Below are positions 1 to 9,907 of a stretch of 9,907 nt of DNA, piece after piece. The stretch is from Desulfobacterales bacterium (lineage in GTDB: Bacteria > Desulfobacterota > Desulfobacteria > Desulfobacterales > BuS5), in the NCBI GenBank assembly GCA_020056865.1, contig JAGVGX010000207.1, forward strand, positions 1 through 9,907. Reading direction: 5' to 3'. The notes below the pieces were generated by a model, which was not told the origin of the DNA, made no database searches, and saw nothing but the letters and a program-made list of their open reading frames with translations. The position numbers and the translations under genes were made by a program. Numbering within the stretch: position 1 is the stretch's first letter; each line of letters opens with the position of its first letter.

Positions 1-307
1 AAGGAAACACAATCATCTGAAAAAAATTTTTCTGACAACAAGTCAAATCAAATACCCGAGAAGTACGCTGGGTACCCATCTTCTGCTAACGGAAACGCTA
101 TGGCACAGATAATATCTGCTGGTTGCATTGAATGTCCTTGCAGGTGTTGTTATTGTATTGATGCTTGTCACGTTATTGAATAAAAGACGCGAGATTGATT
201 TTGATCATCTTTTTAAAATGATGCCGTTTATGAAAACATCTGATGAGCGTATTGAGACCATAGACGCTCAATTAAAAAACGCGTTTAAAAAATATGATGA
301 ATCCTGA
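1..307 (+). pseudogene. 3' part of a small one-helix membrane protein gene, apparently frameshifted
   Basis: Two reading frames together look like one protein. From base 1, frame 1 encodes a hydrophilic, Ser/Asn/Pro-rich stretch ending in NGNAMAQIISAG. From 113 to the TGA at 305-307, another frame encodes a hydrophobic helix (VALNVLAGVVIVLMLVTLL), then a basic NKRR stop-transfer and a charged tail ending in KNAFKKYDES. Removing one G from the GG at 121-122 joins them into a hydrophilic N-terminal part, one transmembrane helix and a cytoplasmic tail. As given, frame 1 stops at 181-183 and the second frame opens only after a TAA at 110-112. The helix frame could instead be its own gene starting at TTG 128 or ATG 161, but this would cut the helix. 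The start lies outside the window. I do not recognise the family. It lies 14 nt before the next gene, so it probably shares its operon. Confidence 0.45.
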
Positions 308-321
308 ATGCAGAGGATAAT

Positions 322-642
322 ATGACTGAAAGAGTCCTGGAAGAAATAACCGTTGGCCTGTCAGACGCGGAAAAAGATGATCTTGAAGAAATGATAAAGG
401 CGTTCAGGCAAAATCAAACTGCCGTACCAGAAACGCCGTCTTCTGAAGATGTGCATAAGCAGATATTATTAATAAGTGAAAACCTTGCTCAATATGGCAA
501 TATTTTGCTGAAATTTGATACAAAATTAAAATTATTATATGGAATTTTACACCTTTCAGACCAAAAAAACAGGATTATGAACCAGCGGATCGACACAATT
601 ATAGAACTGCTCCAAGGGCAAAAAACTTTAGCTGAAAAATAG
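322..642 (+). CDS. Small coiled-coil protein of unknown function (106 aa)
   Basis: The start ATG follows a GAGGA ribosome-binding site. The protein is soluble and highly charged, with no cysteine and no signal or membrane segment. Residues about 1-30 are acidic (EEITVGLSDAEKDDLEEMIK). A Pro/Ser linker follows (about 35-42), and the C-terminal half has heptad-like hydrophobic spacing (ILLISENLAQYGNILLKFDTKLKLLYGIL, then IDTIIELL), which suggests a helical hairpin or coiled coil. It sits between the membrane-protein remnant and the TPR/cNMP/PilZ gene, 33 nt from the latter, so a structural or adaptor role in the same complex is possible. This is inference; I do not recognise the family. Unlike its neighbours, this frame is intact. 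Confidence 0.7.
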   Translation: MTERVLEEITVGLSDAEKDDLEEMIKAFRQNQTAVPETPSSEDVHKQILLISENLAQYGNILLKFDTKLKLLYGILHLSDQKNRIMNQRIDTIIELLQGQKTLAEK

Positions 643-675
643 GTTTTTCTGTTAAGTATTAACTGGGAGGAGAAA

Positions 676-1008
676 ATGAACGACCGGATTGATAGACAGG
701 ACAGTGTTGTCAACCGCATCATCGATGGTTCTATTATTATTGATTCTATTGAAGAATTCGAGGACCTGCTCAAAGCCTTTCCAAATGACCCGAGACTCCA
801 TAGAGTATTTGCTGACCGACTATTAGAAAAAAAATCAATACATGCTGCTGAAGAATACAAGATGTCAGCCGGGTTTTTTATAGGAGCCGGCATGCCGCTG
901 CAGGCAATCACATGTAAACTCTTTGAGTGGCGAATCATCAAGCCCCATCCAAAGAAGAACGAACGGCCTTCCACTCAGCGCTTTGCGAATGCAATCCACA
1001 AAATATAG
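676..1008 (+). CDS. Fragment 1: N-terminal TPR-like segment (110 codons as read)
   Basis: This is the 5' open frame of the broken TPR/cNMP/PilZ gene, ending at TAG 1006-1008. Genuine sequence runs to about residue 90 (helices around EEFEDLLKAFPNDPRLHRVF and ADRLLEKKSIHAAEEYKMSA, the spacing of a TPR-type unit). The last 20 or so residues after IIKP are out-of-frame tail. If translated as it stands, it would give a domain without its nucleotide-binding partners. Confidence 0.5.
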   Translation: MNDRIDRQDSVVNRIIDGSIIIDSIEEFEDLLKAFPNDPRLHRVFADRLLEKKSIHAAEEYKMSAGFFIGAGMPLQAITCKLFEWRIIKPHPKKNERPSTQRFANAIHKI

Positions 1009-1247
1009 TAGCGCAGAAGTTTTTTACCAAACTGGCGTATGAGGAAATGATCGCTTTAATGAACAACATGGTGCTTCGTAACTATCCTGCCAATACCATG
1101 TTGAAGAAATTTGGAGATGAAGAAACCGAGTTGTGCTTTATCGTGTCCGGTGCATTGGAAGTGACCGATTACCATCGCCTTGAAGCCGATGCAAAAGTCC
1201 AAAAAAAATCTGCGACAAAATCTGATAGAAGGCGATATTTTTGGTGA
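927..1247 (+). CDS. Fragment 2: first half of a cyclic-nucleotide-binding-like domain
   Basis: This is the middle open frame of the broken gene. The apparent GTG at 927 lies inside the upstream coding part and has no convincing ribosome-binding site, so it is unlikely to be a true start. Genuine content runs from about 945 (PSKEERT) to the A8 run at 1201. It includes the start of the beta-roll with FGDEETELCFIVSGALEV, the usual 'GD..xx.fI..G.v.v' pattern of the CRP/cNMP family. The tail after QKK is out of frame. Confidence 0.4.
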   Translation: MANHQAPSKEERTAFHSALCECNPQNIVAQKFFTKLAYEEMIALMNNMVLRNYPANTMLKKFGDEETELCFIVSGALEVTDYHRLEADAKVQKKSATKSDRRRYFW

Positions 1248-1845
1248 GATTTATCCGTTTGAGGAGGATAAATTATCTGAATCAGACATTGCATCTATCA
1301 CTCGTGTTGAACTGTTGAAAGTCTCCAAAATAAAACTAACCGCACTTTGCAAAGAACATTCTAACCTTAATCTTCTCATGTGGAACCTGTGTAAATTCCA
1401 TTTTGGATCCGGCCGCGAAATATATTCAAAAACGGTCCGAAAAGCAACCCGGTATCAGTTGCCCATGCAGGTCAATCTGAAAATTTTTCAAGAAGAAAGC
1501 GGAAAATCGCCTTTAAATCTATCCGGATTTACAGACGATATCTCTCTGAATGGAACATGTATTGTTTTGGGGTCGCAATATCAAATCGGTGATATAACCT
1601 GTTTAACGGGAAAAAATGTAAAGATTCAAATGAGTTTACCCATAGAAGCTATCAGTCTCAGTGTCTTGGGCAGTATTGTCTGGAGCAAGAAAACGCCTGT
1701 CGAGGGCAAAAAAACAGCGATCATTGGTGTTCAATTTAAAGAGATAAATGATGTTGACCGCAAAATATTGAAAGACTACTGCTGTGGATCCGAAGCAGAA
1801 CAAAATCTGATCTGGAGCTTGTGGAGTTCGCTTATGGAAAAGTAG
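1180..1845 (+). CDS. Fragment 3: second half of the cNMP-like domain plus PilZ domain
   Basis: This is the 3' open frame of the broken gene. The ATG at 1180 lies within upstream coding sequence, and genuine content begins at NLRQNLIEGDIFGEI after the A8 run. Residues about 15-60 complete the beta-roll. About 60-85 form a helical linker, and about 88-215 form the PilZ beta-barrel with RKATR and DISLNG and an internal IGVQFKEI strand typical of PilZ ends. PilZ domains bind cyclic di-GMP and usually control motility, secretion or surface attachment. The C-terminus ends in an unusual Trp-rich helix (IWSLWSSLMEK). Confidence 0.65.
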   Translation: MKPMQKSKKNLRQNLIEGDIFGEIYPFEEDKLSESDIASITRVELLKVSKIKLTALCKEHSNLNLLMWNLCKFHFGSGREIYSKTVRKATRYQLPMQVNLKIFQEESGKSPLNLSGFTDDISLNGTCIVLGSQYQIGDITCLTGKNVKIQMSLPIEAISLSVLGSIVWSKKTPVEGKKTAIIGVQFKEINDVDRKILKDYCCGSEAEQNLIWSLWSSLMEK

Positions 1846-1870
1846 TTCATAATTTAATATCTCTATACGT

Positions 1871-1887
1871 TTACATGCATGTTGTAA
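1871..1887. promoter_or_regulatory. Dyad-symmetric site upstream of the ParA-like gene
   Basis: In the 96-nt gap between the PilZ gene and the ParA-like gene there is TTACA-N7-TGTAA (1871-1887), which overlaps a perfect 10-bp palindrome ACATGCATGT (1873-1882). It is 55 nt upstream of the ATG. It could be an operator for a dimeric regulator. No convincing -35/-10 pair was found beside it, so this is only a candidate. Confidence 0.25.
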
Positions 1888-1941
1888 TCAGGGACATGAT
1901 GATATTTCAAGCTATACATAGTGGAATAGTGGAGAACAAAA

Positions 1942-2595
1942 ATGGAAAATAGATCAACCCCCACGATATTGGCTGTCGGAGGGGGAAAAGGTGGTGCTGG
2001 AAAGAGCGTCTTCAGTTTGATTATGGCATTTTGGCTGGCCAGAATAGGCAAACGGACCATTTTAATGGATGTTGATCTGGGCGGTGCCAATCTCCACACC
2101 CTGCTTGGGATTAAGAGTCCTGACAGGACGCTAAATGATTTTCTTACAAGAAAATTTGATAAATTAGAAGATATTTGTATTGATACCAGTGAGAAAAACC
2201 TTCGCCTCATCAGCGGAGCCAGTGATGTTCTTTCCATGGCAAACCCACATTTCAGCCAAAAGATCAAACTCATGACCCACCTTTCAAGGCTGGATGCCGA
2301 TTATGTGGTGCTTGACCTTGGAGCTGGGACTTCTTTTAACGTGCTGGATTTTTTTCTTATCGCCCACAAAAAAATTATCGTCCTTACCCCGGAACCAACA
2401 TCGATTCAGAATGCATACATATTTGTTCGCAATGCAGTTTATCGAAAACTAAGCAGACTTTCCAGTAAAAATCCATCTCTCGATGCTCTGATTAAAATTG
2501 CCATGGACCCTAAAAATGCTTTGAAAATCCGTACAATCAAAGAACTTTTTCAGTTCATTGAGGCGTCCGACGAAAAAATATTATTGAGGTTCTAA
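1942..2595 (+). CDS. ParA/MinD/FlhG-like ATPase, N-terminal 217 codons as read
   Basis: This open frame contains the whole nucleotide-binding core of the ATPase: the Walker A GKGGAGKS at residues about 15-22, DVDLGGAN about 43-50, the DLGAG Walker B region around residue 128, and the adenine-side VLTPEPTS segment. Only the last few residues (LLRF) are out of frame. If expressed as written, it would be a C-terminally truncated ATPase. The lysine after the first GG of the P-loop is the signature residue of the MinD/ParA class. Confidence 0.7.
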   Translation: MENRSTPTILAVGGGKGGAGKSVFSLIMAFWLARIGKRTILMDVDLGGANLHTLLGIKSPDRTLNDFLTRKFDKLEDICIDTSEKNLRLISGASDVLSMANPHFSQKIKLMTHLSRLDADYVVLDLGAGTSFNVLDFFLIAHKKIIVLTPEPTSIQNAYIFVRNAVYRKLSRLSSKNPSLDALIKIAMDPKNALKIRTIKELFQFIEASDEKILLRF

Positions 2596-2636
2596 AAAAA
2601 AATATCCAAGATATCCATCTCCGGGTTGTCACCAAT

Positions 2637-2852
2637 ATGGTTAAAAAAGAAAAAGAAGAAAACGCGGGTCGTATTGTTCAGATCGTCGCTGAAAAATACC
2701 TGACCATACCTTCTACGAATTTGGGATGCGTCTTCTATGACCCGAATATCCATGCCATGGTGTCTGATATGGTTCCTCTAATCAATCTGGATAAGGCAAG
2801 TAAAGCTGTTGGAAATATTTATGAAATTGCCAGCAAGTTGTCGAGAGAATAA
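2637..2852 (+). CDS. C-terminal fragment of the ParA/FlhG-like ATPase
   Basis: This is the 3' open frame of the interrupted ATPase. Its apparent ATG at 2637 is an internal methionine (VVTNMVKKEKEENAG) without a ribosome-binding site. The frame is in fact open back to about 2577. Content such as LTIPSTNLGCVFYDPNIHAM resembles the FlhG-type C-terminal segment, where a predicted strand and 'YDPNIHAMV' precede the last helix. It is not an independent gene. Confidence 0.55.
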   Translation: MVKKEKEENAGRIVQIVAEKYLTIPSTNLGCVFYDPNIHAMVSDMVPLINLDKASKAVGNIYEIASKLSRE

Positions 2853-3217
2853 CCAGGTGGACAAGTAACATCGTGTTATGATTTTGCCTTGTTTCATAGA
2901 TACTTTTTTTGGCCTGCAATAGTTCACAATATCTGCTGAAATTTCTTGCAAATCCTTTTCGTTTTGATGTTTTCATGCCATTTCCAACTTTTTAATTCAT
3001 TTTGGTATTTAAATGCATTGCAGAAAATAAACCCTTCAGTTTCCCCATTACCTTTGGTAATTCAAAATGATCAGAAATAAGGAGTACTTGTGTCAAAATG
3101 GTTTGCATATGAGTTAAAATGTAATATATTTGATTTTTAGAAGACAAGACTTATACTTTAACAAAAAAGGGAACATAATTGATTACAAATTTTATTTGTC
3201 AGTGGGGGATATAGCAT
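2853..3217. other. 365-nt AT-rich intergenic region
   Basis: No convincing gene is visible here. It contains a weak stem TAACA-TCG-TGTTA (2866-2878) shortly after the ATPase stop, a 6-bp inverted repeat ATTACC-TTT-GGTAAT (3047-3061), and a short AT dyad ACAAA-N5-TTTGT (about 3185-3199) just upstream of the next ribosome-binding site. A candidate sigma-70 promoter at 3130-3157 is listed separately. A short open frame on the minus strand overlaps the ATPase 3' end and has no family resemblance. Confidence 0.5.
3130..3157 (+). promoter_or_regulatory. Candidate sigma-70 promoter for the V4R operon
   Basis: A -35-like TTGATT (3130-3135), a 16-nt spacer and a -10-like TATACT (3152-3157) would start transcription near 3164. 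That leaves a leader of about 54 nt before the V4R start codon. The -10 matches five of six consensus bases and the -35 four of six, so this is moderate support. Confidence 0.4.
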
Positions 3218-3760
3218 ATGTTTAAAGAAGAAAGAGTCCAAAGCATGTTTAAATGGGATGATCTTGGTGATCTGGATGAAGGCAGACCCAATTTGGGCAT
3301 GCATGTCCCTGTTCTGAACTACAGGCTTTTACAGTATACGTTGAGGGATGTTCTTATCCAGGAGCTTGGCGTACAAAGAACAAATGACATGTTTATTAAG
3401 GCCGGCAGATCCGCCGGGTATCATTTTTGTAAAAATGTATTAAATCCTGATCTTGGGTTTAATGAATTTGTTTCCGAACTTCAGAAAAAGCTTAAAGATA
3501 ACAAAATTGGCATATTAAGGGTGGAACATGTTGACCTTGATGCGTTAAAAATAACATTTACGGTTTCTGAAGACCTTGATTGCTCGGGATTGCCCTTATC
3601 AAATGAAGTTGTTTGCCATTACGATGAAGGCTTTATTGCTGGGATTCTTGAAGCGTATACGGGAAAGAAGTTTTGTGCAAAAGAAGTCGACTGCTGGGCA
3701 AGTGGAGAACGCGTGTGTCGATTTGAAGTGAGGTTGTCAGAAGATGAGCATGATAGTTGA
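3218..3760 (+). CDS. Stand-alone V4R (4-vinyl reductase) domain protein
   Basis: The protein has 180 residues. The ATG follows a GGGGG ribosome-binding site at 3204-3208. Residues about 25-175 fit a V4R domain: a helical N-terminal part (LLQYTLRDVLIQELG, AGRSAGYHFCKNVL) and the diagnostic C-terminal part (CHYDEGFIAGILEAYTG, then AKEVDCWASGERVCRFEV). The paired cysteines in DCWASGERVC match the spacing of the metal-site cysteines in V4R effector-binding domains of activators such as DmpR. V4R domains bind small hydrophobic or aromatic ligands and act as sensors, usually fused to a regulator. Here it is unfused and overlaps the HAMP/CxxC protein gene by 17 nt, so the pair probably forms a two-part sensor. 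Ligand identity is unknown; a hydrocarbon or its metabolite is an inference from the nearby fumarate-adding cluster. Confidence 0.85.
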   Translation: MFKEERVQSMFKWDDLGDLDEGRPNLGMHVPVLNYRLLQYTLRDVLIQELGVQRTNDMFIKAGRSAGYHFCKNVLNPDLGFNEFVSELQKKLKDNKIGILRVEHVDLDALKITFTVSEDLDCSGLPLSNEVVCHYDEGFIAGILEAYTGKKFCAKEVDCWASGERVCRFEVRLSEDEHDS

Positions 3761-4358
3761 AACGAAAAAGAAAGTGGATATCCTGCTGGCAGGTGCTATC
3801 CCCGATAAATACAATTTGCTTGAATATAAGAATGCAGATGAGCGTGAATTTGCTGAAGCTGCCAACCGGCTTATAGAATTTATGGCAGAGATACATTCTT
3901 ATATTGTACATCTGTCAAAAGGAGAATTACAAAATATTCGATTCAACCGAGACAATTTTCTTGCATCGCCATTTAAGGAATTAAATTCACGCCTGTTGAC
4001 GTTGACGTGGCAGGCGAAACAGATTGCCGATGGGGATTACTCCCAGCGGGTGGATTTTCTGGGAGAATTCGCAGAAGCTGTCAATGCCATGGTTATCAGC
4101 CTTGACAGCAAGGAAAAAGCACTCAAGAATAAAATTAAAGAGCTGGAACATGCACTTGGGCATATTAAAAAACTCGAAGGGATCTTGCCGGTGTGCTCAT
4201 TTTGCAAAAAAATAAGAAAAGAGGATAGTTCTGATAATGATGACGATCAATGGGTGCGTATAGAAAAATATATCCAAGACCGGACAGAGGCCATGTTTTC
4301 TCACTCCATATGCCCTGAGTGCATGAAGGTGAATTATCCGGAGTTTAGTATTGACTGA
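3744..4358 (+). CDS. HAMP/coiled-coil signalling protein with C-terminal CxxC..CxxC tail
   Basis: The protein has 204 residues. The start ATG lies inside the upstream V4R gene, and a second in-frame ATG at 3750 is an alternative. No membrane helix or kinase, cyclase or methyl-accepting domain is seen. Residues about 30-90 are helical. About 91-115 look like a HAMP-type AS2 segment (IADGDYSQRVDFLGEFAEAVNAM). About 115-150 form a charged coiled coil (KEKALKNKIKELEHALGHIKKLEG). The tail (about 150-204) carries LPVCSFCKKIRKE, a spacer with QWVRIEKYI, then FSHSICPECMK. This tail is familiar at the ends of many deltaproteobacterial PAS, GGDEF and response-regulator proteins; the four cysteines suggest a zinc site. 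With no output domain present, it may be a signal relay for the V4R protein encoded immediately upstream. Confidence 0.75.
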   Translation: MSMIVETKKKVDILLAGAIPDKYNLLEYKNADEREFAEAANRLIEFMAEIHSYIVHLSKGELQNIRFNRDNFLASPFKELNSRLLTLTWQAKQIADGDYSQRVDFLGEFAEAVNAMVISLDSKEKALKNKIKELEHALGHIKKLEGILPVCSFCKKIRKEDSSDNDDDQWVRIEKYIQDRTEAMFSHSICPECMKVNYPEFSID

Positions 4359-4378
4359 ATTTTTTCCAAGGAAATAAG

Positions 4379-4948
4379 ATGAAAATAACTACGAAAACAG
4401 GTGACCATGGAATGACCAGCCTGTTTAGTGGGCAGCGTGTTTCAAAACATCATATCCGAATTGAAGCAAATGGCGATGTAGATGAACTCAACGCTGCAAT
4501 CGGTGTTCTTGCAGCAGCATTGAGACAACAGTATTCAGATATATTCAGCGAACTCCAGGACATTCAGTCCGATCTGTTCAGCCTTGGTGCCTGGCTTTCT
4601 ATAACATCAGATTCTTCCTCGGCGATGCTTCTTGGTGAATTTAGCAATGATTTTACTAAAAAATTGGAAACAGCCATGGATCGCATGGAGAAAAAAATTC
4701 CTGATCTAAAAGGGTTTGTTCTGCCGGGTGGCCATGGTTTTGCTGCCCAGGCTCATGTTGCAAGAACGGTTTGTCGCAGGGCTGAAAGACGGGTGGTTGC
4801 GCTTGTTGATAAAACAGATAAAGGCATGGTGTATGACCAGCTTCAAAAGATTGTTATCTATTTAAACCGGCTTTCAGATTATCTGTTTGTTCTTGCACGG
4901 TATTGTAACGAGATGATGAAGGTAGGCGATGTTTTGTGGCAGAAATAA
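4379..4948 (+). CDS. PduO-type cob(I)alamin adenosyltransferase
   Basis: The protein has 189 residues, the normal size for PduO/MMAB-type ATP:corrinoid adenosyltransferases. These transfer the 5'-deoxyadenosyl group of ATP to cob(I)alamin to make adenosylcobalamin. The ATP-binding N-terminal signature is present (TKTGDHGMTSLFSGQRVSK, residues about 4-22), then GDVDELNAAIG (about 32-42), FVLPGG (about 117), the catalytic helix ARTVCRRAERR (about 128-138) and YLNRLSDYLFVLAR (about 160-173). The ribosome-binding site is AAGGAA, and the gap from the previous gene is 20 nt, so it is in the V4R operon. Its product is the cofactor of methylmalonyl-CoA mutase-type enzymes, which are used in propionate metabolism and in rearranging alkylsuccinyl-CoA during anaerobic alkane oxidation. 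The pathway link is inferred from the nearby fumarate-adding enzyme. Confidence 0.93.
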   Translation: MKITTKTGDHGMTSLFSGQRVSKHHIRIEANGDVDELNAAIGVLAAALRQQYSDIFSELQDIQSDLFSLGAWLSITSDSSSAMLLGEFSNDFTKKLETAMDRMEKKIPDLKGFVLPGGHGFAAQAHVARTVCRRAERRVVALVDKTDKGMVYDQLQKIVIYLNRLSDYLFVLARYCNEMMKVGDVLWQK

Positions 4949-5631
4949 TGCGACCTTTAAAAAGCACGACCTGTATTAGCACATACCATACACAACTTAT
5001 AAACCGGCGGAAGCTTTCTGAAAAAGCCTTTGAGGTTGAGTTTACCCGGCCCTGTGCTTTTGAGTTTTCCCCCGGCCAGCGCATACGTTTGATACATGAG
5101 AACATAGAAAGAGATTATTCACTGATTTGCGCTCCTGAGGATGCGACACTTTCTCTGTGCATCCGAAAGTATAAAGACGGGCAAATGTCTTCCATACTTG
5201 CAACAGCAGATATTGGCAGCTGGTTTCATTTTGCCGGCTCCTATGGTTATTTTTTGTTTCGGCCGTCTATAAAACAGGCGGTTTTTGTGGCAACGGGAAC
5301 CGGCATTGCCCCATTTGTCTCGATGGCGCGTTCAAAATCCAGGGGTTTTATTTTTCTTCATGGCGTAAGTACATGTTCTGAATTGTATTATAAACCTCTT
5401 TTAAAAAGTATGGTTCAACATTACATTCCTTGTGTTTCAGATGATATGCCTGGGCCGTACAGTTCTGGCGAGGCTTTTTCCGGGAGGGTCACCCAATATC
5501 TTGAACATCACCTTGACCCCGGAGTTTATGACTTCTACCTTTGCGGTAAGCAGGCGATGATCAAGGATGTTATGCATATAATAGATTCATATTTTTCAGG
5601 GTCTCTGGTTTACACAGAGCGGTTTGATTAA
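4936..5631 (+). CDS. FNR-type FAD/NAD(P) oxidoreductase
   Basis: Read from GTG 4936 the protein has 231 residues. ATG 4948, overlapping the previous stop as TAATG, is an equally possible start giving 227 residues. A GGTAGG at 4921-4926 favours the GTG; the TAATG overlap favours coupling to the ATG. The N-terminal half is a flavin-binding beta-barrel with FSPGQRIRL and the FAD motif RDYS. The C-terminal half is the pyridine-nucleotide fold with ATGTGIAPF, LHGVS, FYLCGKQAMI and the terminal YTERF. No cysteine cluster for an iron-sulfur centre is seen at the C-terminus, unlike PyrK. These enzymes move electrons between NAD(P)H and ferredoxin or flavodoxin. Tight coupling to the adenosyltransferase suggests that it may supply electrons for cob(II)alamin reduction (inference). 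Confidence 0.87.
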   Translation: MAEIMRPLKSTTCISTYHTQLINRRKLSEKAFEVEFTRPCAFEFSPGQRIRLIHENIERDYSLICAPEDATLSLCIRKYKDGQMSSILATADIGSWFHFAGSYGYFLFRPSIKQAVFVATGTGIAPFVSMARSKSRGFIFLHGVSTCSELYYKPLLKSMVQHYIPCVSDDMPGPYSSGEAFSGRVTQYLEHHLDPGVYDFYLCGKQAMIKDVMHIIDSYFSGSLVYTERFD

Positions 5632-5669
5632 TCGTGTCATCATACCCCTTTGTTTGTCTTGTTTCAGTT

Positions 5670-6440
5670 TTAAACCAGACCGTTCGTCTTTTTCCCTTTC
5701 CTGACGGCAGGGTTGACAGCTTGCCCACGGGACATGTTTTGTTTTTGTTCCGCTGATAAGACATCTTGATAGCGTTTTTTGATCAGCCTTGGAACAAAGG
5801 ATACAAGAACAAAAAAAATACCGGCTACTGCAAGATAGATAAATGTTTTTTTCAAATCCCCCTTGCCGCTGATCAGCGATCCTCCTGCAAACACATAGGC
5901 TACGGTACCTGGGAGCATGCATAACCAGGAAACCAGAAGATAGGTAAAAAACCGTATTTTGGTAAGTCCGTAAACGTAATTCTGGATGTTAAAAGGGAAA
6001 ATAGGAACCAGCCTGGTGATCATCAACATGCGCCATCCGTGAGTCTTAACACCTTCGTCGATTTTTTTAAGCTGTTTATTTTTTGAAATCCATCCTGTTA
6101 CCATTGATCGAGCGGCATAGCGTCCCATCAGAAAGGCGGCACCTGCACCAAGGGTTGAACCTATAGAAACGTAAACGGTTCCCAATATGGAGCCAAAAGC
6201 AACGGCGCCGGCCAGTGTGATGGGAATGCCGGGAAGAAAAAACACACACGAAAGGATATACAAAGCAATGTAAACAACAGGACCAAATATGCCAAAGCCT
6301 TTGATCCATTCATTGATTCTGGAAAGATTGTTTATATGGATGTACCCTGTCAGGCCTGATAAACGGATCAGAAGAATGACAATCAGCAACCCTGTGATGA
6401 TCATCACTGGTTTTATCCATTTTGAGGGTTTCCCGGCCAT
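5670..6440 (-). CDS. TVP38/TMEM64 (VTT domain) family membrane protein
   Basis: The protein has 256 residues with an AAAGGAG ribosome-binding site. An N-terminal membrane helix (about 12-32) is followed by the VTT/DedA-like core: FGPVVYIALYILSCVFFLPG (about 52-71), AGAVAFGSILGTVYVSIGSTLGAGAAFLMGRYAAR as a glycine-rich re-entrant region (about 77-111), RLVPIFPFNIQNYVYGLT (about 142-159) and further helices to about 220. The F.P.....R...R pattern and the RxxPxxPFNxxNYxxG element are the family signature. VTT proteins lie in the inner membrane and are linked to lipid or membrane homeostasis; the transported substrate is generally undefined. The basic C-terminal tail (KKRYQDVL, VRKGKK) is cytoplasmic. 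It is convergent with the oxidoreductase gene, 38 nt apart, and faces a long intergenic region with inverted repeats. Confidence 0.9.
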   Translation of the reverse strand: MAGKPSKWIKPVMIITGLLIVILLIRLSGLTGYIHINNLSRINEWIKGFGIFGPVVYIALYILSCVFFLPGIPITLAGAVAFGSILGTVYVSIGSTLGAGAAFLMGRYAARSMVTGWISKNKQLKKIDEGVKTHGWRMLMITRLVPIFPFNIQNYVYGLTKIRFFTYLLVSWLCMLPGTVAYVFAGGSLISGKGDLKKTFIYLAVAGIFFVLVSFVPRLIKKRYQDVLSAEQKQNMSRGQAVNPAVRKGKKTNGLV

Positions 6441-6476
6441 AACGCTCCTTTAACAAGCGAGTTATGTTAAGTTAAA

Positions 6477-6513
6477 AGCGTAAATAAAGAGAAAGCACCT
6501 GTTTTTTTACGCT
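6477..6513. repeat. 8-bp inverted repeat near the VTT gene start
   Basis: AGCGTAAA (6477-6484) is mirrored by TTTACGCT (6506-6513) with a 21-nt spacer. It lies 37-73 nt upstream of the VTT start codon, in the leader or promoter zone. The wide spacing fits two half-sites of a regulator better than a transcript hairpin. A chance match in AT-rich DNA cannot be excluded. Confidence 0.3.
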
Positions 6514-6534
6514 ATGGTTATCATATTATGACTT

Positions 6535-6559
6535 TTTTAACAAATAACATTTGTTAAAA
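6535..6559. promoter_or_regulatory. Perfect 11-bp dyad, candidate operator
   Basis: TTTTAACAAAT (6535-6545) and ATTTGTTAAAA (6549-6559) are perfect inverse complements around AAC. The dyad is about 95 nt upstream of the VTT gene (minus strand) and 430 nt upstream of the porin remnant. The stem has almost no G/C, so it is a poor transcription terminator but has the shape of an operator for a dimeric repressor or activator. No regulator gene is visible in the window. Confidence 0.45.
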
Positions 6560-6892
6560 CTTGTGCTGGTACTGGAACATCCATAGCTCTATTTCAGGTT
6601 CATCCCTGTTTTTTCATGGGTTCGATATTTTTCTATAATATAAAATTATAAAGCGAATGTATTTTGAATACAAAACAAAATGATACTTATATAGACAGAT
6701 AGAATTTATCTTGTTAAGATATTTTTGCTTGAAACCAGTATGCTTTTCATATGTGTGTCATGTAAAGAGCTGGTACTATTAATAAAATTGACTTATTAAT
6801 TCATTTTGATTTGTATGAAAACAAAATATATATTTATCTAAACATGATTTATATGTTCTTAAGAAAATTACAACGCAAGTATAGGGATTTAG

Positions 6893-6921
6893 TTGACATG
6901 TCCGGTTACACAAGTTATATT
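6893..6921 (+). promoter_or_regulatory. Strong sigma-70-like promoter of the porin remnant
   Basis: A perfect -35 TTGACA (6893-6898), a 17-nt spacer and a -10 TATATT (6916-6921) are present. Initiation would fall near 6928, leaving a leader of about 60 nt before the porin ATG. This is the best promoter match in the window, and it drives a gene that is now broken. Confidence 0.65.
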
Positions 6922-6989
6922 TTTATTTTTTGGTTTGCCTTTAATTAGTTTATTTTTTTTAAACTTAATTTAAAGAAAGGAGTATATAG

Positions 6990-7331
6990 ATGATAAGCAC
7001 TCTGGTTTTAAGCAAACGACAATGTGCTTTGATATTTGCTTTTCAGTTGATTGGGATTGTGTCTATTTTGATTGTTTCAGGAAATTCAGTAGCATCAGAT
7101 CAACCCAAGCGGACATTAAAAGGAAACATGATAGAGACCTACAACATTCTTCCACAGGATGCGTCAAACATTGGCGAAGTCTTTACCAAAGGCATGGTTT
7201 ACGGAAGACTTAGAACCAATTATTTCAGGTTTTTTTGGGAAGAAGAAAAAACCACCCACAATCCGGTTGGTTTTGGAGTTGGTGGCAGCCTGATCGCCAA
7301 GTCTGCCCCATTCGGTGGTTTTAGCGATTAG
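6990..7331 (+). CDS. Porin remnant, 5' frame with signal peptide (113 codons)
   Basis: This open frame holds the intact secretion signal and the first beta-hairpins of the porin. Translated alone it would export a short fragment unable to form a barrel. The genuine sequence ends around GGFS; the final D is out of frame. Confidence 0.55.
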   Translation: MISTLVLSKRQCALIFAFQLIGIVSILIVSGNSVASDQPKRTLKGNMIETYNILPQDASNIGEVFTKGMVYGRLRTNYFRFFWEEEKTTHNPVGFGVGGSLIAKSAPFGGFSD

Positions 7332-7423
7332 GAGGTTATGCATCCCAAAATCTTGATGCTTTAGATGATGAGGACGCTCAATCCGGTGCAGCGGGTAAGG
7401 ACACCTTTTCCCGATTTGATGTA

Positions 7424-7708
7424 TTGAGAAAAAATCGATGGGGCATGACGGTTCTTGCCCAGGCGTATCTGCAGTACACCTTCATGAAGACCGATATTAA
7501 AATAGGACGTCAGATATGGGAAAGTTTTTTGGCACAATCAAATGACACCAAAATGATACCGAACACGTTTGAAGGTGTTTCCTTAACAAGCCGTTATGTG
7601 CCGTACACATCGGTTTTTAATCCAATTTTTTCAAATGCAACCGTCCCCCTCATGTCAAGAAGACAGGGACGGTTGTATTTTATATGTTCTGGCCCATATC
7701 GACGATAG
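7424..7708 (+). CDS. Porin remnant, 3' frame (internal start, 94 codons)
   Basis: This frame continues the porin after the break. It is actually open from 7325 (RLGGYASQNLDALDDEDAQ); the start codon at 7424 is internal with no ribosome-binding site. Porin-like sequence runs to about YVP near 7608. The last ~33 codons read through the hairpin and the end of the opposite-strand gene and are probably meaningless. Confidence 0.4.
   Translation: MRKNRWGMTVLAQAYLQYTFMKTDIKIGRQIWESFLAQSNDTKMIPNTFEGVSLTSRYVPYTSVFNPIFSNATVPLMSRRQGRLYFICSGPYRR
7638..7675 (+). terminator. Hairpin between the porin remnant and the convergent PNPOx-like gene
   Basis: CAACCGTCCC (7638-7647) pairs perfectly with GGGACGGTTG (7666-7675). 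Inside, TGTC (7653-7656) can pair with GACA (7662-7665), extending the stem past a 5-nt bulge. On the plus strand it is followed by TATTTTATAT, a moderate U-tract, so it probably terminates rightward transcription from the porin promoter. The right arm ends 4 nt before the stop codon of the leftward gene, but the minus-strand side lacks a good U-tract. Confidence 0.55.
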
Positions 7709-8093
7709 GTCTTGTTTTAAGAATATCAAAAGCGACAAGATGCTTGAGCATTTCAGCAGCATCCCCGACTTTTGCTCTGACGCCTGCTTTCACCTTGTCA
7801 TACATGGTTCCGCTATCTTCAATACGTTGTAATTTAAGATAAATACGACACCCTTCTGTCTGCATACCGGTTTTCCCGGGGGCAATAACAAGCAGGGAAG
7901 CCAGAGGGTTTTCTTTTAGATTTGCAAAGGTGTGGTTGTCGCCTAGCATGAGCATAATGGTTTTTTTATCAGCCATGAACAAAGACCCGAAGATGGCGAT
8001 ATTGGTTTCACCGTTTTTATTTGATGTGCTCAATATATTCATTTTTTCCGGAAGCGACAGATAGCCTATAACTTTTTCACTAAGTACACTCAT
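7680..8093 (-). CDS. Pyridoxamine 5'-phosphate oxidase-like split-barrel protein
   Basis: The protein has 137 residues with a strong AAAGGAGG ribosome-binding site. The pattern fits the PNPOx-like FMN-binding split barrel: an N-terminal helix (VIGYLSLPEKM), first strand NILSTSNKNGETNIAIFG, then TIMLMLGDNHTFANLKENPLASLLVIAP (the conserved 'T..NL..NP..s..v' element), and a final helix-strand part. Members bind FMN, F420, heme or nothing, and many reduce small organic substrates; true pyridoxine-phosphate oxidase is longer and is unlikely here. It is the last gene of the leftward fumarate-adding cluster, 94 nt after the SCP2-like gene. A redox or cofactor-binding role beside the glycyl-radical enzyme is inference. 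There is no signal peptide, so it is cytoplasmic. Confidence 0.8.
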   Translation of the reverse strand: MSVLSEKVIGYLSLPEKMNILSTSNKNGETNIAIFGSLFMADKKTIMLMLGDNHTFANLKENPLASLLVIAPGKTGMQTEGCRIYLKLQRIEDSGTMYDKVKAGVRAKVGDAAEMLKHLVAFDILKTRPIVDMGQNI

Positions 8094-8187
8094 GTGATAC
8101 CTCCTTTTGTTTTACGTTCGTATGGGTTGTATTCAGCTAATGCCTGGTTAAGCAAATATTGGTTGTCAGATAACCTGGTGCCTTGTA

Positions 8188-8577
8188 TTATCCAACCGAT
8201 CCCATTACTTCAATGAAACGGGTGACTGCCCCGATATTGCTGGTCAGTTTTGCAATGGATCCTTTTTTAAGCTTGAACGCCCCAATGGTCAGCGCCATTA
8301 CAACATTTTTTTTCCCGTCAAGAACTTCTGTGTAGATCCCAGCTTTTCCTTCAATAATAATATCAACATCATTGTTTTCTGTTTCGCCATACCAGTTGGG
8401 TTCTCCAGATGGTAAGTACATGCCGAACGATACATCGTTGCTCAGTTTTGCTTTACGGTCCTGAAGTACCCTGAAGTGTATCTTGCTGTCGAAACCCTTG
8501 CCTTTTTGCAGGAGGTCTTCATCTTTTTTAACCTTTTCTACCACAGTTTCAAACCATTGTTTGCCGAACCTGCTCAT
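8188..8577 (-). CDS. SCP2 sterol-carrier-like lipid-binding protein
   Basis: The protein has 129 residues with an AAGGAGA ribosome-binding site. Its length and pattern match single-domain SCP2 proteins: an N-terminal helix (WFETVVEKVKKDEDLLQKGKGF), strands with IHFRVLQDRKAKLSNDVSFGMYL, the central DVDIIIEGKAGIYTEVLDGK, and a C-terminal hydrophobic part (MALTIGAFKLKKGSIAKLTSNIGAVTRFIEVMG) corresponding to the 'G.lk..G.....l...........' end that closes the lipid tunnel. SCP2 domains bind fatty acids, acyl-CoAs and sterols in a hydrophobic cavity. It sits 98 nt downstream of the small cysteine-subunit gene in the fumarate-adding cluster. Holding or delivering the alkane substrate or alkylsuccinate product is an attractive but untested idea. 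There is no signal peptide. Confidence 0.78.
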   Translation of the reverse strand: MSRFGKQWFETVVEKVKKDEDLLQKGKGFDSKIHFRVLQDRKAKLSNDVSFGMYLPSGEPNWYGETENNDVDIIIEGKAGIYTEVLDGKKNVVMALTIGAFKLKKGSIAKLTSNIGAVTRFIEVMGSVG

Positions 8578-8618
8578 TTGCGCTCTCCTTATTAAAATGC
8601 TAAATTCATATGAAACCC

Positions 8619-8640
8619 TTTTTAGACGATAGCCTAAAAA
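8619..8640. repeat. 7-bp inverted repeat between two genes of the fumarate-adding cluster
   Basis: TTTTTAG (8619-8625) and CTAAAAA (8634-8640) flank an 8-nt loop in the 98-nt gap between the 126-aa cysteine protein and the SCP2-like gene. It could be a weak processing stem or attenuator lowering expression of the two distal genes. The stem is A/T-rich and has no clear U-tract on the minus strand after it. Confidence 0.25.
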
Positions 8641-8675
8641 TGGTTTTTAATGCAAGACGAAATGGCGTCAGAATC

Positions 8676-9056
8676 CTATTTTTGAAACTTTTCCATCTGC
8701 CTCTGGGTTCTTCTATAATGAGGATCTGCACATTCGGTCCCATCCGTATCAATAATTGCCATTTCTACATAATATTGACAAGCTGACGCATTCACATTGA
8801 AAAAAGTTATGAAAGAGTTTTCCCCTTCCGTATGATATACTGGTGGATTAAGCGTAATATCACTGCCGGTTTTTAATATTTCACAGAAACCTCTTCCGTC
8901 TGATCCATAAGCACTTTCAGAAAAATGCTTGCATTTCCCGCATGCTGTATCAGGCACCAACTCACGTGCTTCTACACCCTTGTTTTTTGTCAGGTTGCTG
9001 GTCATGGTGTCGCGCATCTTGTCCCATTCGTTCCGGCGCGATTTGCGTCTGGACAT
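8676..9056 (-). CDS. Small cysteine-rich (iron-sulfur type) subunit of a fumarate-adding enzyme, candidate
   Basis: The protein has 126 residues with a perfect AGGAGG ribosome-binding site. The first ~30 residues are basic (SRRKSRRNEWDKMRD). Cysteines occur at 39, 42, 58, 93 and 109: CGKCKHFSESAYGSDGRGFC, then ASACQYY. The C-x2-C ... GRGFC ... NxSAC arrangement resembles the HiPIP-like [4Fe-4S] small subunits (BssB/BssC type) that bind and protect the glycyl-radical catalytic subunit in benzylsuccinate synthase. The known small subunits are about 60-80 residues, so this one is longer at both ends. Gene order, two positions after the catalytic subunit, supports a subunit role. I do not assign a specific Ass/Mas letter because naming differs between systems. 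C109 would be left over if four cysteines hold one cluster. Confidence 0.65.
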   Translation of the reverse strand: MSRRKSRRNEWDKMRDTMTSNLTKNKGVEARELVPDTACGKCKHFSESAYGSDGRGFCEILKTGSDITLNPPVYHTEGENSFITFFNVNASACQYYVEMAIIDTDGTECADPHYRRTQRQMEKFQK

Positions 9057-9126
9057 GGATAACCTCCTATAAATTATAACATGTTAGTAATGTTAACAGT
9101 TTTTTTAATCACTGCATTTGTATTAA

Positions 9127-9342
9127 TTAATCAGATGCTGTCCCTTCAATACCGGCAGATTTTCCCCATGGGGAACTTCCGGCTTTGATGACTTGTATAG
9201 ATTCCTGCTTCATCTGATCCACCCCGATCCATTGCTGACATTTGGGACACTGTCGTACAGCAAGGGATGCATCTATCCGAGGGTTATATAGGTATCGAAA
9301 TTCGTTTATGGGCGCTTCAAAGGCGCAGCTGGAGCATTTCAT
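9127..9342 (-). CDS. Small CxxC..CxxC (zinc-ribbon/rubredoxin-like) protein of the fumarate-adding cluster
   Basis: The protein has 71 residues with an AAAGGAG ribosome-binding site. Cysteines at 3, 6, 32 and 35 form two CxxC knuckles (MKCSSCAFEAP and RQCPKCQQWIG) separated by an aromatic-rich segment (FRYLYNPRIDA), the shape of a rubredoxin- or zinc-ribbon-type metal site. The C-terminal half is low in structure (Gly/Ser-rich, GSSPWGKSAGIEGTASD). It begins 65 nt after the catalytic-subunit stop. Alkylsuccinate synthase clusters are known to encode additional small proteins beside the catalytic subunit, and this fits one of them. A structural zinc rather than iron site cannot be excluded. No signal peptide. 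Confidence 0.62.
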   Translation of the reverse strand: MKCSSCAFEAPINEFRYLYNPRIDASLAVRQCPKCQQWIGVDQMKQESIQVIKAGSSPWGKSAGIEGTASD

Positions 9343-9407
9343 TTTATTTCTCCTTTCAACAATCTAATAATAAACTGTTTTTTTAAAAGCATCAAACTAT
9401 ATAAAAA

Positions 9408-9907
9408 CTATAAACCGACAACAGTTCTTTGTATGATGTTATCCTGAGTCTTTCTGCTGATATCAACAAAATGAGCGCTGTATCCTGCTACACGTACGAT
9501 GACTTCCTGGTACTTTTCTGGATCTTTTTGCGCTTCTCTCAAGGTTGCATCATCAACCATATTAAACTGAACGTGATCAATCCCCAGTTCAGCCCAGGAA
9601 TCCATATAGGCCTTCCAGAGTTTATACCCCTTTTCCCCGGTCAGCTGTGTTGGAGAAAGGCGCTGATTTAAAAGGAATGCCCGACCATCTTTAACGTGAT
9701 CAATTTTACTGCATGATTTTAGAACTGCAGTCGGCCCTTTTTTATCTAAACCCGGTCCTGGAGAAATTCCGCCGTCATATGCGGCATCCCCTAATCTTCG
9801 TCCATTGGGCAGTGCACCGATCAGGCTTGCGTAGTGAATGTTTCCACTAACATTTTCGGGAAGAGCCGGCCAATTGTTGCCGCTTGGGCATTTAATCTCG
9901 TGAGAAT
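9408..9907 (-). CDS. assA: Fumarate-adding glycyl-radical enzyme, catalytic subunit (probably alkylsuccinate synthase), C-terminal part
   Basis: The frame is open from the window edge to TAG at 9408-9410 and gives the last ~165 residues; the 5' portion, including the active-site cysteine, lies outside. It contains the glycyl-radical motif RVAGYSAHF with the radical glycine encoded at 9483-9485, followed by VDISRKTQDNIIQRT. Upstream are GNIHYASLIGALPNGRRLGDAAYDGG, ISPGPGLDKKGPTAV and LGIDHVQFNMVDDATLREAQ, all typical of the pyruvate formate-lyase superfamily end domain. The exact motif and the neighbouring small cysteine proteins favour the fumarate-adding group (Ass/Mas, Bss, Nms) over pyruvate formate-lyase, which has RVSGYAVRF. 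Such enzymes add a hydrocarbon C-H across fumarate to give a substituted succinate. Alkane versus alkylbenzene specificity cannot be decided from this end alone; alkylsuccinate synthase is my preferred reading. Confidence 0.8.
   Translation of the reverse strand, partial: SHEIKCPSGNNWPALPENVSGNIHYASLIGALPNGRRLGDAAYDGGISPGPGLDKKGPTAVLKSCSKIDHVKDGRAFLLNQRLSPTQLTGEKGYKLWKAYMDSWAELGIDHVQFNMVDDATLREAQKDPEKYQEVIVRVAGYSAHFVDISRKTQDNIIQRTVVGL

Follow-up and report, generated by a model that had tools for sequence, protein, structure and literature searches.

The described system closest to the one treated here is the (1-methylalkyl)succinate synthase (MASS) of HxN1, whose structure (9o8u) contains an alpha chain, a beta chain (MasB) and a rubredoxin-like delta chain (MasE). 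In this complex MasB plugs the substrate channel, and the alkane channel, which has a large hydrophobic entry, is blocked by the beta subunit and Trp185; the recombinant complex is described as low-yielding and unstable (PMC12358834, in part). In toluene degraders, the bssDCABEF clusters encode an AAA+ protein, BssE, and a von Willebrand protein, BssF (PMC7285207, in part). It is an open problem by what route an alkane, inert and insoluble, reaches a water-soluble radical enzyme in anaerobes, and by what means the enzyme is activated and protected. Here we describe a stretch of 9,907 nucleotides from a Desulfobacterales bacterium (contig JAGVGX010000207.1, positions 1 to 9,907; hereafter the window), at whose end, as judged from protein matches, lies the last part of a gene cluster for an alkane-type X-succinate synthase, with genes for the alpha, delta and beta subunits, an SCP2-fold protein and a split-barrel protein of the flavin mononucleotide (FMN) type. 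The last two genes belong genuinely, if optionally, to alkane-type clusters, and no earlier description of them in this setting was found in the open-access literature. The cluster genes of the window are the following:

9408..9905, minus strand: alkane-type X-succinate synthase alpha subunit (AssA/MasD), C-terminal 165 residues, open at the window edge
9127..9342, minus strand: masE-type gene for the delta subunit (rubredoxin-like fold), 71 amino acids (9o8u_D, E 1e-23)
8676..9056, minus strand: masB-type gene, beta subunit, 126 amino acids (9o8u_B, E 3e-34)
8188..8577, minus strand: small SCP2-fold protein, 129 amino acids (sterol carrier protein 2cx7)
7680..8093, minus strand: PNPOx-like FMN split-barrel protein, 137 amino acids (FMN-binding protein 3in6)

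These five reading frames run in the same direction on the minus strand (7680-9907), with gaps of 65, 70, 98 and 94 nucleotides, and an AGGAG-type ribosome site lies 6-7 nucleotides upstream of the ATG in all four small genes (AAGGAG at 9350-9355 for the masE-type gene, AGGAGG at 9063-9068 for the masB-type gene), so that coordinates and site positions bear out the initial annotation, which had reported five frames on one strand with strong ribosome sites and gaps of 65-98 nucleotides. The alpha part carries the RVAGY glycyl motif, with the codon of the glycyl radical residue at 9483-9485, and matches the Pfam family Gly_radical (1e-30); its nearest solved chain is MasD (9o8u_A, E 4e-86), as compared with 1e-37 for the alpha subunit of benzylsuccinate synthase (BSS). 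It is thus assigned to the MasD/AssA type rather than to BSS or pyruvate formate lyase, and the active-site cysteine lies outside the 165 residues. The alpha, beta and delta chains of MASS all have counterparts among the window genes; genes for the gamma subunit (MasC) and the activating enzyme (MasG) would be expected past the window edge. Two small cysteine proteins had been noted between the catalytic subunit and the tail genes; they are present, and their identity is here corrected, since the proteins of 71 and 126 amino acids match MasE and MasB of 9o8u and are therefore established subunits, delta and beta, of the solved complex.

The two tail genes had been called SCP2-like and PNPOx-like, which matches to 2cx7 and 3in6 confirm. 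The 129-amino-acid protein is placed in the SCP2 fold by its match to 2cx7 (E 1e-5 by sequence, 2e-14 with a family profile), and a homologue search restricted to word-sharing candidates gave 66 clusters with a clear lower edge. Its resemblance to described proteins is distant: identity to the sterol carrier protein 2cx7/Thermus protein 1wfr is only 25%, and in the alkylsulfatases SdsA1/PisA1 and in UbiJ, SCP2 is a fused domain or belongs to another pathway. The 137-amino-acid protein is placed in the split-barrel fold, with FMN as its predicted cofactor, by its match to 3in6 (Swol_0183; E 1e-7 by sequence, 3e-13 with a family profile), with which it has a TYANLK stretch in common. It scores 26.0 bits against Pfam PNPOx_N, under the curated cut-off of 28.1, and PF01243 is carried by most of its homologues among the 120 matches listed. 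The fold is common to 3in6, the FMN-binding protein of Desulfovibrio vulgaris and HupZ, whereas FMN in the window protein is a prediction; HutZ is listed as a heme protein, and HupZ is a heme protein too.

These genes recur beside other synthases. A search with the glycyl radical enzyme fragment of the window gave 78 assA/masD loci, many on short contigs, to which the fragment is 66-92% identical over the best segment (loci or contigs are numbered with L and genomes with G below). Split-barrel homologues were found in 20 of the 78 loci, one of them a fragment at a contig edge, and SCP2 homologues in 6. The split-barrel gene stands behind the gene for a von Willebrand (VWA) protein, with or without an intervening SCP2 gene, in 16 of the 20; it stands behind MoxR without VWA in L041 and L078, directly behind masD in L017 and further downstream of SCP2 in L071. 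A common order is activating enzyme, masD, masE/masB, a small frame here called f1, MoxR, VWA, (SCP2) and split barrel, followed either by enoyl-CoA hydratase-like and ligase-like genes or by a pair of GAF/kinase-like and response-regulator-like genes; several of these neighbour names rest on motif and length only or were assigned by eye. By domain, MoxR and VWA correspond to bssE and bssF, so that the pair usually sits beside the counterparts of genes described in bss clusters. Many contigs conserve this order independently of each other, and one of them is a complete chromosome (L002). A Bacillota contig of 53,285 bases holds entries P0060 and P0250, whose neighbouring locus tags, 08935 and 08940, are an SCP2 protein and f1, respectively. 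Identity matrices of SCP2, split-barrel and MasD fragments, with one MasD taken per locus, agree with each other (r 0.81, 0.82 and 0.52 over 9, 8 and 19 loci), and, when the presence of an SCP2 neighbour is mapped on a tree of 22 split-barrel proteins, it needs 2 changes, as compared with 7.2 in shuffles. In alkane-type clusters the genes thus keep their shared location across at least two phyla, and they are inherited together with the synthase.

This recurrence has clear bounds. Neither gene was found in 11 loci of about 40% MasD identity (12.6-19 kb each), presumed to be of the toluene or naphthalene type, or in 4 loci of 46-50% identity (10.7-19 kb); one 20-bit split-barrel match, in L135, was left uncounted. 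The pair is also missing from many alkane-type loci. The pair as a general trait of all fumarate-adding clusters is therefore not borne out, with none in the 15 loci of 38-50% MasD identity, and the two genes are best described as optional in alkane-type clusters. Of the co-occurrence suggested by the initial annotation, the alkane-type part (20/78 and 6/78 loci) stands and the part concerning more distant synthases does not; absence of both genes next to all other fumarate-adding clusters, which had been named as the outcome that would overturn the idea, is not what is seen, since the pair recurs at other alkane-type clusters. Plasmid searches gave either nothing or three short matches to the glycyl radical region, one annotated as such and two unannotated. 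In separate observations on cluster neighbours, a pair of GAF/kinase-like and response-regulator-like genes lies about 6 kb from the distant synthase of G250 (L138:572-2825), where SCP2 and split barrel are missing, and genes named by eye as MoaD-like and ThiF/E1-like (L125), together with an unnamed gene with the motif MIVDxPxSHF, recur near VWA in some synthase clusters (L125:1260-2899, L013:15208-16130, L044 and L071).

The window itself departs from this order. In its nearest relatives, L001, L004 and L139, the SCP2 gene stands behind VWA, and in L004 an f1-MoxR-VWA block separates masB from SCP2; in the window, the SCP2 gene follows masB after 98 nucleotides, and f1, MoxR and VWA were not found anywhere in it. 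This block may be encoded at another site of the genome or may have been lost. Related rearrangements are found among the loci given above.

Presence was also compared across 389 genomes, of unstated completeness, from the class to which Desulfosarcina alkanivorans belongs, scoring at most 2 MasD (E limit 1e-150), 11 SCP2 and 10 split-barrel candidates per genome. By best MasD match, 28 genomes have an alkane-type synthase (at least 67% identity), 13 only a match of 38-41% and 4 one of 46-50%. Close split-barrel homologues, defined as those of 189 bits or more, occur in 11 of the 28 alkane-type genomes, in 0 of the 17 with other synthase types and in 2 of the 344 with no MasD match (p 2e-12), and the association persists when the five genomes used to train the profile are removed (6/23 vs 2/361, p 6e-7). 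Close SCP2 homologues, defined by E below 1e-60, occur in 4 of the 28 as against 1 of the 361 others (p 1e-4). The three SCP2 homologues outside the profile (G019, G030 and G303; E 4e-47 or better) all adjoin VWA or a split barrel behind VWA. Three genomes are exceptional. G303 has SCP2 and split barrel and no MasD match, and its contig, L139, begins at the f1-MoxR-VWA genes, so its cluster seems cut; G209 (contig L143) has two tandem split-barrel copies before a GAF/kinase-like gene, and no MasD, VWA or SCP2 on that contig; G019 has SCP2 and no adjacent split barrel. Searches at E 1e-20 of a phylum sample and of a sample of the class of L071 found only members already known (1/326 and 1/113).

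Broader relatives were left uncounted. Split-barrel homologues of 96-131 bits, a broader family, are the best match in 32 genomes; the MasD is of the alkane type in 2 of these, and 7 have a synthase that is more distant. G047, G285, G339 and G391, which have no MasD match, contain weaker SCP2 homologues (E 1e-18 to 1e-29), not taken as members of the family, and those of G285 and G339 adjoin carboxylase-like genes. A term search of a paper on acetone in Desulfococcus biacutus (PMC4103992, in part) found no mention of sterol carriers. With names assigned by eye, weaker SCP2-fold homologues stand beside hydantoinase/acetone-carboxylase-like genes in L090 and L091 and, in L087, have an aldehyde ferredoxin oxidoreductase-like gene on one side and an iron alcohol dehydrogenase-like gene on the other. 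Enzymes of anaerobic catabolism may repeatedly have small SCP2 proteins as partners.

The small frame usually found just upstream of MoxR, f1, appears to have escaped annotation. It lies outside the window: 36 of the 78 loci, and also L134, L139, L140 and L142, contain this frame, which is about 111 codons long and has CxxCG and CPxCG knuckles with, in its main group, the motif C-x3-X-x2-C between them. Position X is UGA in 23 members (L004:3806-4138, L002:11339-11671, L039:11251-11583 and 20 others) and cysteine in 17, and never UAA or UAG; in L071, L134 and five actinobacterial cysteine members, which have a shorter loop, this column rests on profile alignment. A stem of 7 pairs begins 7 nucleotides behind the UGA, and 136 of 147 pairs are kept in 21 UGA members, as compared with 96.4 (standard deviation 5.3) in synonymous shuffles, none of 2000 reaching 136. 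In 12 cysteine members, 56 of 84 pairs are kept against 52.6 in shuffles (481 of 2000 as high), and one of them, L139, keeps all 7; codon weights for this test were pooled from the family, and the UGA members L071 and L134 and the five actinobacterial cysteine members were left out.

A profile made from cysteine members only, run on a sample of 301 genomes of the class, found 21 copies in 20 genomes, 4 without a stop, 16 with one TGA and 1 with TGA and TAA (G214); 19 of these genomes are among the 28 with alkane-type MasD and the remaining one is G303, with its cut cluster. For tRNA-Sec a threshold of 60 bits was chosen here (that of Rfam is 47), since weak matches turn up in control genomes as well. 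Of 23 UGA-type genomes, 18 reach this threshold and 5 give only about 47 bits or less; tRNA-Sec does not separate the genome types, as 12 of 16 cysteine-type genomes reach the threshold too. Four members scanned against Pfam and NCBIfam gave no family at cut-off, and the protein database has f1 only in pieces of 62-81 residues, as would be expected if the entries had been cut at the UGA. On these patterns we take f1 to be a real, unannotated, rubredoxin-like selenoprotein family, which present annotation cuts short. Because its profile weakly picks up MasE and related small proteins (18-32 bits), f1 is probably related to the delta subunit, remotely and with a longer chain; only its location connects it with the synthase. 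In the open-access literature no paper was found that joins alkylsuccinate synthase with a selenoprotein, and selenocysteine with benzylsuccinate synthase returned, as titles, only work on pyruvate formate lyase and Geobacter aromatics.

As to function, the reading we prefer, at a probability of roughly 0.45, is that the SCP2 protein would be a carrier and the split-barrel protein its flavin partner, both working at the synthase as a module that assists alkane activation. Most likely, the SCP2 protein would hold a very hydrophobic chain, as SCP2 domains do with fatty acids: by its entry title the SCP2 structure 1pz4 holds a C16 fatty acid, and structure titles also place SCP2 domains in alkyl sulfate enzymes. 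Being soluble, such a protein would be a sensible vehicle for its cargo, which might be the n-alkane on its way to the gated channel in the alpha subunit or the surfactant-like alkylsuccinate on its way out. The split-barrel protein, most likely binding FMN as predicted, may be a small partner that serves the radical enzyme or the activating enzyme in redox reactions or in protection from oxygen, and could supply electrons to the activating enzyme or remove oxidants. Several observations weigh against such a module. The 129-amino-acid protein matches no Pfam or NCBIfam model at E 0.1; close SCP2 homologues occur in only 4 of the 28 alkane-type genomes, and with training genomes removed their presence is not significant (1/25 vs 1/361, p 0.13), so that adjacency carries the case for SCP2; and in Desulfatibacillum alkenivorans (G007) the split barrel is present and SCP2 gave 0 matches. 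From its absence there and its presence in 4 of 28, SCP2 is not essential to the reaction. Unlike the window, moreover, the mas cluster of HxN1 is described as masA-G, with no SCP2 or split-barrel gene in that description (PMC12358834, in part).

It is rather unlikely that the SCP2-like protein acts downstream instead, carrying (1-methylalkyl)succinate or its CoA ester among synthase, CoA ligase and mutase rather than the alkane. The fatty acid in 1pz4 would suit such a cargo, and, with names given by eye, 27 of the 78 loci have a ligase-like gene (f10), 32 a mutase-like gene of family f7 and 26 one of family f11; yet no ligase-like f10 gene lies on the examined stretch of any of the 6 SCP2-holding loci, and what comes next in L001, L002, L004, L139 and L140 is the GAF/kinase-like and response-regulator-like genes. 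These same neighbours, consecutive with SCP2 and split barrel in L001, L002, L004 and L139, would fit a regulatory protein that presents the hydrocarbon to the GAF/kinase-like sensor, which is very improbable given that the sensor family was not seen on the examined DNA of L013, L071 and L142 and that the sensor pair near the distant synthase in L138 has no SCP2 gene.

The usual position of the pair, directly behind MoxR and VWA, would fit a role as structural or maturation factors that act with a MoxR-VWA machine on the synthase (assembly, remodelling or radical repair) and are not carriers. In toluene degraders, bssE is reported to be essential and bssF disruption abolishes growth on toluene, although the authors leave downstream genes as a possible cause (PMC5874301, in part). 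In the window and in L017, however, the split barrel stands beside synthase genes with MoxR-VWA not adjacent, and we consider such a role quite unlikely. That the genes are neighbours by coincidence, or that unrelated genes were put together by an error of the assembly, might be suspected from the window, which lacks the f1-MoxR-VWA block found between masB and SCP2 in L004; this explanation is rejected through the order conserved in many independent contigs, the complete chromosome L002 included, and the matching identity matrices.

An extension of the carrier and flavin-partner reading, which we regard as somewhat doubtful, is a dedicated accessory apparatus in which SCP2 would hand the alkane to the gated channel and the FMN split barrel would feed or protect the radical, joined in many sister clusters by the selenoprotein and MoxR-VWA. 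If this were true, the carrier/flavin pair would stay with the enzyme even where the selenoprotein-MoxR-VWA block was lost or moved. The small genes of the cluster are concrete candidates for missing factors, namely a carrier, a flavin protein and, in relatives, a selenoprotein. The initial annotation knew of no characterised role for an SCP2 carrier or a split-barrel protein in this setting, in agreement with the open-access literature, where no paper was found that pairs alkylsuccinate synthase with SCP2, sterol carrier protein, pyridoxamine 5 or von Willebrand.

Two features flank the cluster on its downstream side:

7633..7680, no strand assigned: strong inverted repeat directly behind the last cluster gene, -26.6 kcal/mol on the plus strand
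6990-7708, plus strand: broken OprD-type porin gene in two pieces in different frames, convergent with the cluster, its end near the inverted repeat

The repeat may be a terminator that separates the cluster from the broken porin gene facing it, whose second piece matches OprD weakly (E 1.5e-4, under cut-off). Inside the repeat lies a 10-pair terminator-like site on the minus strand, which is no evidence by itself because 3 such sites were found where 2.7 are expected. Further away on the plus strand, the window encodes a V4R-domain protein (3218-3760), a cobalamin adenosyltransferase (4379-4948) and an FAD/NAD oxidoreductase-domain protein (4936-5631); these genes lie a few kb from the alkane cluster, whose relatives encode mutase-like proteins that would need adenosylcobalamin.

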